Positions 3,541 through 62,726 of a DNA stretch of 64,000 nucleotides are shown piece after piece (positions within the stretch are counted from its first letter, which is position 1; each line of letters begins with the position of its first letter). The position numbers and the translations under genes are program-made. This stretch comes from Spirochaetales bacterium (lineage in GTDB: Bacteria; Spirochaetota; Spirochaetia; SZUA-6; RPPD01), in NCBI GenBank assembly GCA_016934415.1, contig JAFGSW010000088.1, positions 32,805 through 96,804 on the forward strand. Direction: 5' to 3'. A model generated the notes under the pieces. It was not told the DNA's origin, did no database searches, and saw nothing but the letters and a program-made list of their open reading frames with translations.

Positions 3541-3741
3541 TTAAAAACTGTAGGGAAGCAGTCCGCGGATCCGTTTGTTTTCCGACTTATGAAGCATGCC
3601 GGCGTGCCGGAGATTCCGCTTTCGTTTGCTTGATTTCTTGGTGAGAATGTGCCGCAACCCCTGCTTCTTGTAGCGGACCTTCCCCGATCCGGTTACCGTA
3701 TAGCGTTTCGCCGCGCTTTTTCTGGTTTTCATTTTGGGCAT
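3541..3741 (-). CDS. rpmI: 50S ribosomal protein L35
   Basis: A 66-residue basic protein with the L35 hallmarks: [14 protein letters not shown] at the N-terminus and the [15 protein letters not shown] core. It is a structural component of the 50S subunit. The ATG overlaps the infC stop by one base (TAATG), so re-initiation or coupling from infC is likely. Confidence 0.98.
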
Positions 3742-4277
3742 TAGGCGTGTCCTTTCTTGGCTTTTGCTCCGGGCGCGATCATGAGCGACATGAAGCGGCC
3801 CTCCATTCTTGGTGGTGATTCAAGCACGAAGGTGTCTTCGAGTCTCTCGAGCACGCGGTCGAGAACGTTTCTTCCCAATTCCTTGTGCGCCATTTCCCGC
3901 CCGCGGAATCGGATGGTCACTTTCACTTTGGATCCATCGGCGAGAAATTCGCGGATATGCTTTACCTTGAACGAGAGATCGTGTTCGTCGATTTTCGGCT
4001 GCATTCTCATCTCTTTGAGTTTCACCTGCTTTTGCTTTTTTTTCGACTCACGCTGCTTTTTCCCCTGCTCGAACCGGTATTTCCCGAAATCAAGAATCTT
4101 GCATACCGGGGGATCAGCCCCGGGCGAGATTTCGACGAGATCCAACCCGCGATCCTGCGCGAGCCGGATGGCTTCAACCGTCGGTAAAATGCCCTTCTGT
4201 TCGCCGTTTTCATCTATAACTCTTACGGATTGGGCCCGAATCATGTCATTGATTCTGGTATCTTTCGGTGCTGACAA
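3741..4277 (-). CDS. infC: Translation initiation factor IF-3
   Basis: A 178-residue protein with both IF-3 domains: the N-domain with [15 protein letters not shown] and the [23 protein letters not shown] signature split across residues ~47-70, and the C-domain with the [17 protein letters not shown] region. IF-3 binds the 30S subunit, keeps 50S off and proofreads the start codon. The start is TTG at 4277, preceded by GAGGAGG at good spacing. A rare start codon on infC fits the known autoregulation, in which IF-3 discriminates against its own mRNA; E. coli uses AUU. Confidence 0.97.
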
Positions 4278-60058: not shown

Positions 60059-60721
60059 ATGAATAAATTAACGCTGAGCGCCGAAGCGCGGACGACGGTG
60101 AAGAACCGCAAGGGCGAAAATTACCGCCTGCGACGCGAAGGCAAGATCCCGGCGATCGTCTACGGCGCGCGAGAGCCGATGATGATCTCCGTGAATGAAC
60201 TGGAATTTTCGCAGAAATTCAAGGTGATCAATGAAAACGTCATTGTCACCCTCGAAATGGGAAAGACGACCTGCGACGTCCTCGTCAAGGATTACCAGGA
60301 GGACCTGCTCCTGAATAAAATCGTTCACCTCGATTTTTATGCAATCGATCCGAACCGGATCCTGCGCACGCGCGTCCCGGTCCGCCTGATCGGCAGCGCC
60401 AAGGGCGCCAAGGAGGGCGGCATCCTCGAACAGCTTCTGCACGAGATCGACGTGGAATGCCTTCCCCAGAACATGCCCGAAAAGATCGAGCTGGACGTTT
60501 CCGACCTCGACATCCATCATTCGATACACGTCAGCGACCTCGCGGCGCTGGCCGACGTCAAATTTCTCAACGCCCCCGATCAGGTCGTATGTCACGTCGT
60601 CACCAAGGCGGCTGAAATCGAAGAGGCGCCGAAAGTCGAAGCGGTCGCCGGCGCGCCCGTCGAAGGTGAAGCCCCCGCAGCCGCTCCCGAGACCGCCGCG
60701 ACCGAGAAGAAAGAGGGATAA
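60059..60721 (+). CDS. rplY: 50S ribosomal protein L25 (CTC family)
   Basis: A 220-residue protein with the N-terminal L25 domain (LSAEARTTVKNRKGEN, LRREGKIPAIVYG) that binds 5S rRNA and the CTC C-terminal domain (LRTRVPVRLIGSAKGAKEGG). A Glu/Ala-rich tail of about 35 residues follows. ATG with AAAGGAG upstream. Its stop TAA is the only codon separating it from pth in the same frame. Confidence 0.96.
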   Translation: MNKLTLSAEARTTVKNRKGENYRLRREGKIPAIVYGAREPMMISVNELEFSQKFKVINENVIVTLEMGKTTCDVLVKDYQEDLLLNKIVHLDFYAIDPNRILRTRVPVRLIGSAKGAKEGGILEQLLHEIDVECLPQNMPEKIELDVSDLDIHHSIHVSDLAALADVKFLNAPDQVVCHVVTKAAEIEEAPKVEAVAGAPVEGEAPAAAPETAATEKKEG

Positions 60722-60724
60722 CCA

Positions 60725-61324
60725 CTGCCGCTGGTTGTCATTGGACTCGGCAATCCCGGTGAGACGTACGCGCAGAACCGGCACAATGTCGGCTTTCAGG
60801 TGGCCGACCGGATCGCCGCCATGTGCGGGTGCGTCATCAGAAAACCCCATTTCCTCTCGCGCTACGAGGTGGGAAAGGGCTTGTGGCAGGGCCGTCCGAT
60901 CGCGCTGGTCAAGCCCCTCACCTACATGAACGCGAGCGGTGAAGTCGTGAAAGCCGCGCTCCGGCTGGCGAAAGCGGTACCCGCGGATCTTCTCATCGTC
61001 TGCGACAGCCTTGATCTCGATCTCGGCGCGCTCAAGCTCAAGCTGCAGGGTTCCTCGGGCGGCCACCATGGCCTCGATTCGATCTTCAGTGCGCTTAAAA
61101 CCACCGCCGTCCCGCGCCTGTCCATCGGGATAGGACGTCCTTTCAGACGGGGTGCGGTCATCAGACACGTTCTGGGAGATCCGACTCCGGAGGAGGCGGT
61201 TCTGCTTGAACGGGCCGTCGAGACGGCCTCCCGCCAGATTTTGCGTCTCCTCAAGGAACCGAAGCAAAAGGTGATGGGCGACGTCAACCGCCGGGTGAAA
61301 GACGATGCTCGCGAAGAGGATTGA
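60725..61324 (+). CDS. pth: Peptidyl-tRNA hydrolase, apparent CTG start
   Basis: A 199-residue enzyme that frees peptides from stalled peptidyl-tRNA. The complete N-terminal motif GLGNPGETYAQNRHNVGF (catalytic His at NRHN) and LTYMNASGE, SSGGHHGLDSI, RLSIGIGRP are present. In-frame ATG, GTG or TTG is not found before this motif, because the rplY stop TAA is directly upstream in the same frame. The CTG at 60725 has GAGGGA six bases before it and gives MPLVVIGLGNPG, so I take it as start. The alternatives are CTG 60731, or readthrough. Confidence 0.9.
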   Translation: MPLVVIGLGNPGETYAQNRHNVGFQVADRIAAMCGCVIRKPHFLSRYEVGKGLWQGRPIALVKPLTYMNASGEVVKAALRLAKAVPADLLIVCDSLDLDLGALKLKLQGSSGGHHGLDSIFSALKTTAVPRLSIGIGRPFRRGAVIRHVLGDPTPEEAVLLERAVETASRQILRLLKEPKQKVMGDVNRRVKDDAREED

Positions 61325-62726
61325 GCGATTCTTAAGAACCCACCGTGTCCCTGTCGGCGGCGCTCTCCTTGTCGGGTATTCCGGGGGTCCGGATTCCACC
61401 TGTCTCGTCTCCCTCCTGCACGGTCTGTCGTCGTCGTATCGATTCTCACTCGCCTGCGCCTTCCTCGATCACGGGTTGAGGCCGGAGGCGGAACGGAGCG
61501 CAGAAGCGGAGCTGGTGAACGGATTCTGCCGGGACCGCGCGATTCCGCTTTTCATCCGCACCCTCGCACCGGACGCGCTCGCGGTCGAAGCCCGGTACGG
61601 GGGCTTGAGTCTCGAGGAAACGGCGCGGCGCGCGCGCCTTGATTTTTTCACGACGCTTCGCCGTGAGCACGGATTTGATCGTCTTCTCCTGGCGCACACC
61701 CTCGACGACCAACTCGAGACAATTGTCTGGAGGATTTTTCAGGGCTCGGGAGCGGCGGGTATCCGCGGTATCCGCCCCCAAAATGGCTGGATTTTAAGGC
61801 CCCTGTTGGGCACCACCAGGGGGGAGATTCTTGAGTATTTGAGTGCTGAAGGATTGTCGTTCAGCTCGGATTCGACGAACGCTGAAAACCGATTCCTGCG
61901 CAATAGGATCCGGCACGACCTTATTCCCGTTCTTTTGGATATCTTTCCGGGTATGGGACGCAGCCTCCGGGCATTGTCCGCCAAAATGGGAGACGTCGAA
62001 GACTACCTGCAGACGCAGGCGGCCGACGCGTTCGCCTGGGAAGAGACCGAACGCGGCGTGAAAACGGCTTCGGACGCTTTTTTCGCGGCGGCGCCGGCGC
62101 TGAGGCTTTATGCGCTGTACTCCCAGGCGGGCAGAGTGAGGGGAGGGGGGCTGGCGCATGCGTCGGGGGGGGCGCTCTCATACCGCTTTTTCGAGCCGCT
62201 TCTCGCCCGGGATACCGGCGAAAAGCGAAAAATCAATCTGCGCGGATTCGGATGTATCATTCGGCGCCGCGGACGGTGGCTTTTTTTGGAGAGGGATATT
62301 GTCGCGATTCCGAAAAAAGGTTATTTTATCACTATCAATGCGGGACGGCCGTTTACTCTCTTTGATCGTTGGTTCGTTCTGAGAATGCCCGGGGATGAAA
62401 GGCGTTCGACGGACGTTCTGGTGTGCTCGCTTGAAGCGGAAAAAGTGGCTCCTCCGTTCGCTCTACGCTCCCGAAAAAACGGGGACCGGATTCACCAGGT
62501 CTTCGGTACGAAAAAACTGAAGAAATTGTTCAGTGAATGGCGGGTGAACGACGCGGAAAGAGAGGAGATACCCCTGCTCGTGGACGGGAGGGGAATCGTG
62601 GCGGTGCTCGGAAGCCTGCGCGGTTTCCATGACGTCTTTCGACGAGGGGCCGGGGGCGGAGCCGGTTGGGAAGCTGTCGAAGATATCCGGTTGTTTGAAA
62701 CGAAAATAAGTGCGGAAAAAACATAA
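61305..62726 (+). CDS. tilS: tRNA(Ile)-lysidine synthetase
   Basis: A 473-residue enzyme that converts C34 of the AUA-reading tRNA-Ile to lysidine. The P-loop is SGGPDS (26-31), followed by LDHGLRPEA, LAHTLDDQLET and the C-terminal TilS domain with SRKNGDRI and GTKKLKKLFSEW. It overlaps pth by 20 bases. Complete, somewhat longer than the E. coli enzyme. Confidence 0.95.
   Translation: MLAKRIERFLRTHRVPVGGALLVGYSGGPDSTCLVSLLHGLSSSYRFSLACAFLDHGLRPEAERSAEAELVNGFCRDRAIPLFIRTLAPDALAVEARYGGLSLEETARRARLDFFTTLRREHGFDRLLLAHTLDDQLETIVWRIFQGSGAAGIRGIRPQNGWILRPLLGTTRGEILEYLSAEGLSFSSDSTNAENRFLRNRIRHDLIPVLLDIFPGMGRSLRALSAKMGDVEDYLQTQAADAFAWEETERGVKTASDAFFAAAPALRLYALYSQAGRVRGGGLAHASGGALSYRFFEPLLARDTGEKRKINLRGFGCIIRRRGRWLFLERDIVAIPKKGYFITINAGRPFTLFDRWFVLRMPGDERRSTDVLVCSLEAEKVAPPFALRSRKNGDRIHQVFGTKKLKKLFSEWRVNDAEREEIPLLVDGRGIVAVLGSLRGFHDVFRRGAGGGAGWEAVEDIRLFETKISAEKT

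Follow-up and report, generated by a model that had tools for sequence, protein, structure and literature searches.

Conserved weak start codons are already known from several bacterial genes, namely infC, pcnB, sigR and ccpN. In other phyla infC, which codes for initiation factor IF3, begins with AUU, AUC or AUA, and pcnB of E. coli combines an AUU start with a good Shine-Dalgarno (SD) sequence. The infC system, with its autoregulation by IF3, resembles the locus described here, a CTG at the head of the essential peptidyl-tRNA hydrolase gene pth in the class Spirochaetia, in that a translation gene with a conserved non-canonical start would be initiated at a low and tunable rate; it differs in that the codon here is CUG, the gene is pth and lies downstream in its operon, and infC of this class has TTG. 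The conserved GTC start of Streptomyces sigR, which is repressed by IF3, is likewise a taxon-wide rare start with a strong ribosome-binding site that holds one operon product low, but it is a GTC, belongs to the upstream gene, occurs in one genus (32/34 species, against 18 families for the pth CTG) and has been proven experimentally (PMC5472188). As with pth, a conserved weak start stands behind a good SD in cvfC1 (AUU) and ccpN (AUA) of staphylococci and bacilli (PMC13009471). These two genes and pcnB, in contrast to pth, use AUN codons, encode regulators or RNA enzymes and are backed by ribosome profiling and reporters or genetics.

The rplY-pth junction

The window, a stretch of 64,000 nt, comes from a genome assembly of 4.06 Mb in 102 contigs (G000) and has the gene order ispE, tRNA-Gln, rplY, pth, tilS around the junction (Table 1). 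The rplY product ends in an acidic, Ala/Glu-rich tail, and a lone triplet, CCA (60722-60724), separates the rplY TAA from the CTG. Direct reading confirmed what had been noticed from the letters of the window, namely that the CTG stands right behind the in-frame rplY stop and six bases from GAGGGA, and that no ATG, GTG or TTG is available ahead of the GLGNPG motif. The CTG is followed by CCG CTG GTT GTC ATT and then by GGA CTC GGC AAT CCC GGT, which encodes GLGNPG. The conserved motif had been placed six codons past the TAA; GLGNPG is met at the eighth codon and the conserved beta strand near the fifth or sixth, so that the discrepancy is trivial.

As in Pth1, to which the gene belongs by both TIGR00447 and PF01195, the N (GLGNPG), H (RHN) and MN motifs are all found in the translation, with GGHHGL replacing GGHNGL, and only the start codon and the place directly behind rplY are unusual. 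At the position of N114 in E. coli Pth (GGHNGL), the window protein has H, and relatives have N, K, R or other residues. The full Pth domain can be reached from no ATG, GTG or TTG in the window. The first canonical in-frame codon, GTG 60800, lies 3' of the catalytic N10/H20-type residues (GLGNPG...RHN), and a start there would drop both motifs; it had been correctly foreseen that a gene finder limited to ATG, GTG and TTG would truncate the enzyme at this codon. Seven other ORFs of the window combine a Pfam domain with a late first NTG, and in each of them a canonical codon precedes the domain, leaving pth as the sole such ORF whose first NTG is not upstream of its domain.

Table 1. Features of the rplY-pth-tilS region, in window coordinates
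Feature	Position	Strand	Basis
rplY, bL25/CTC-type ribosomal protein, 220 aa, ATG start, TAA stop	60059..60721	+	NCBIfam TIGR00731, 160.6 bits (cut-off 73.1)
GAGGGA, SD-like, within final rplY codons, 6 nt 5' of CTG	60713..60718	+	sequence
TAA, rplY stop, in frame with pth	60719..60721	+	sequence
CTG, proposed pth start codon	60725..60727	+	triplet conserved in relatives
pth, peptidyl-tRNA hydrolase, 199 aa counted from CTG	60725..61324	+	TIGR00447, 158.8 bits (cut-off 100); Pfam PF01195
GTG, first canonical in-frame start of pth	60800..60802	+	sequence
tilS, tRNA(Ile)-lysidine synthetase, ATG start, 20-nt overlap with pth end	61305..62726	+	TIGR02432

Conservation of the CTG triplet

Relatives from across the class have CTG in the equivalent position. 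STOP-NNN-CTG was present there in nearly all members of a first set of relatives, and when the pattern accepted any first base in the start codon (TRR-NNN-NTG), 25 of 395 class genomes matched, of which 24 carry CTG and a single one ATG. In 85 genomes both the rplY stop and GLGNPG were mapped, and the subset with window-like spacing was picked blind to the start codon. At codon -6, 30 of these 32 genomes (20/22 genera) have CTG, one has ATG and one GCA; such a comparison of starts in relatives had been proposed by the sequence-only reading. All 30 Leu codons at -6 are CTG, compared with 4 of 25 in a Leu column two codons downstream (Fisher's exact p = 1.5e-11, relatedness uncorrected), and the CTG share of Leu codons in these genes overall is 34%. 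The genomes are distant, a sister genus being 47% identical and the terminal branches of the tree amounting to ~0.4 changes per residue.

In the main set CTG was found in 45 genomes from 17 families and 33 genera, and in 32 of the 45 (14 families) no ATG, GTG or TTG stands between it and GLGNPG. An SD-like stretch is present in 39 of 44 CTG genomes, mostly 5-9 nt upstream of the CTG, and the distance between the two is constant across CTG genomes, as expected of a start codon. No clear SD was seen in several genomes of family f31, in one of f33 and in one of f75.

Initiation at a canonical codon further in, giving a short Pth, would draw on GTG 60800, the only start of ATG/GTG/TTG type on offer in the window; a few CTG genomes also carry an ATG or GTG 2-4 codons past the CTG, which could serve as the start in those genomes. 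In the window, however, such a protein would lose GLGNPG and RHN, and of the 32 CTG genomes with no canonical codon ahead of GLGNPG, 22 have the first one past RHN. We consider internal initiation very improbable.

The sequence-only reading had offered two alternatives, non-standard initiation at CTG and readthrough of the rplY TAA to yield an L25-Pth fusion, for which the CTG would be a plain linker leucine codon. CTG initiation is strongly supported by conservation of the triplet and by an SD at the right distance; readthrough did not survive the comparison. The window and most of its nearest relatives do show the shared frame and single intervening codon that favour a fusion. Across the CTG genomes, however, the rplY stop is TAA in 24, TAG in 18 and TGA in 2, 27 different triplets precede the CTG, and the rplY frame, which can be any of the three, matches that of pth in 34 of the 44 and differs in 10, the downstream frame not being kept in phase. 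The conserved unit is the CTG triplet, not Leu. In addition, in the Sphaerochaeta-like family f14 (ten CTG genomes, 6 genera) rplY ends 11-23 nt before the CTG, and the gene has its own SD outside rplY, mostly of the AGGAGG type. On this comparative evidence readthrough is refuted as a conserved mechanism, and we give it next to no credence for the locus.

With f14 added to the main set, the CTG totals ~55 genomes, 39 genera and 18 families of Spirochaetia, on a tree so weakly resolved that gains and losses of the codon are not reliably countable. A sequencing error hiding an ATG had been named as an outcome that would overturn the observation, and the metagenome-like assembly behind the window, in 102 contigs, lends some colour to a base-calling or assembly error at a real ATG, GTG or TTG. 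Against this, the same CTG is shared by these ~55 independent genomes, the single-contig G025 among them, and conservation at this scale refutes an error, the probability of which we regard as negligible.

In 43 of 44 main-set genomes the CTG lies 0-4 nt behind the rplY stop. Canonical pth starts are equally near in about half of cases (9/19), a contrast with a Fisher value of 5.7e-6 that was computed with 44/45 for CTG. The close spacing suggests restarting ribosomes. Since f14 keeps the CTG without close coupling, closeness to the stop is not required. In G052 the SD stretch lies 3' of the rplY stop and the CTG is retained.

Other pth starts and the initiation apparatus

ATG, GTG or TTG occupies the pth start in families f16, f22 and f24, in f31 g175 and in part of f14, which shows that pth can do without the weak start. 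Within one genus, pth of G008 (L015) has ATG and a 64-nt spacer behind rplY, and that of G022 (L012) has CTG at 3 nt. Several genera of family f31 lack an NTG directly after the rplY stop (L231, L237, L124, L234, L241, L243), and ATC, ATT, CTA, ACG or a codon inside rplY may start pth there. In G448 (L113) pth is in frame with the rplY stop and has no NTG, CTG included, ahead of GLGNPG; the gene may begin at an ATC seven codons upstream, a further non-canonical start. Lineages with long or overlapping N-termini (f31 g42, g185 and g188; f28 g39; f11) may use ATC, ATT, CTA, ACG, or a canonical codon within rplY in another frame. Outside the class, Leptospira-like and other relatives have ordinary pth starts.

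Substitution by ATG in several lineages, for example in G008 beside G022 once the spacer had reached 64 nt, would fit a CTG that is a neutral relic kept by descent, a good SD and restart making the identity of the codon nearly irrelevant; the tight spacing in most cases points the same way. Over the same distances (~0.4 changes per residue), however, other N-terminal positions are scrambled and the triplet is fixed, and a neutral codon would also drift to GTG, TTG, ATG or other Leu codons. A neutral relic is in our judgement distinctly unlikely.

The rplY-linked copy is the single pth match in G000. A second pth of another subfamily, away from rplY, occurs in many relatives (L178-L197), and among the second copies unlinked to rplY in 20 relatives almost all start at ATG. 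The infC gene of the window (3741-4277, minus strand) was considered as a second odd start and rejected, its start being a normal TTG behind GGAGG; TTG behind a GGAGG-like sequence was found for infC in every readable relative (L148-L175).

An altered initiator anticodon arm would relax discrimination against CUG (PMC11497404). The initiator arm of G000 is canonical (GGGCTCATAACCC), with the three G-C pairs and the CAU anticodon intact. An alternative initiator with a CAG anticodon was rejected, G000 having only the CAU arm, and occurrences of GGGCTCAGAACCC in a few relatives were put down to chance, the one inspected (L146) not being a tRNA. RNA folding around the pth start was no better than that of shuffled sequences (z 0.86), so no structural switch is visible, and an Rfam search at the rplY-pth junction found only the upstream tRNA.

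Proposed initiation at CUG and Pth dosage

Our main reading, drawn from sequence comparison and given a probability of about 85%, is that Pth would be made as a protein of its own, with initiation at the CUG at 60725 directed by the SD and carried out by fMet-tRNA, and that the weak codon would be kept by selection. GAGGGA at the end of rplY would set the CUG in the ribosomal P site, where the ordinary initiator fMet-tRNA would read it with a first-position mismatch; ribosomes ending rplY at the TAA 3 nt upstream would be well placed to restart there.

CUG makes up 0.024% of bacterial starts, and expression from it in E. coli is ~0.86% of that from AUG (PMC11497404). Since so poor a codon, one mutation away from ATG, GTG and TTG, has nevertheless been kept for so long, low initiation appears to be favoured, and we infer that the CUG serves pth as a dosage brake, its mRNA encoding a ribosomal protein as well. 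Selection would thereby keep Pth far below bL25 from the same mRNA. Pth synthesis would probably also be sensitive to initiation stringency, and IF3 control of pth is likely by analogy with sigR, ccpN and cvfC1.

A feedback sensor is an unlikely elaboration of initiation at CUG. The weak start would raise Pth synthesis when initiation becomes less stringent or peptidyl-tRNA accumulates, with short N-blocked peptidyl-tRNA-Leu perhaps acting as the primer in the P site at the CUG. If so, the enzyme that clears dropped-off peptidyl-tRNA would be tuned by its own substrate via its start codon.

A literature search on CUG with pth, rplY or spirochaetes, in a library with few subscription journals, turned up no earlier description of such a start on pth at class scale. 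No bacterial NTG start is used less than CUG, yet on pth it is fixed at class-level distances, and many of these genomes have yielded no pth other than the rplY-linked copy. Gene finders limited to ATG, GTG and TTG will truncate or lose pth in many spirochaete genomes. With this locus nature offers a clean test case for three questions: what keeps a weak start in place, whether Pth has to be held at low dosage next to ribosomal proteins, and whether the fidelity of initiation is connected to peptidyl-tRNA drop-off.
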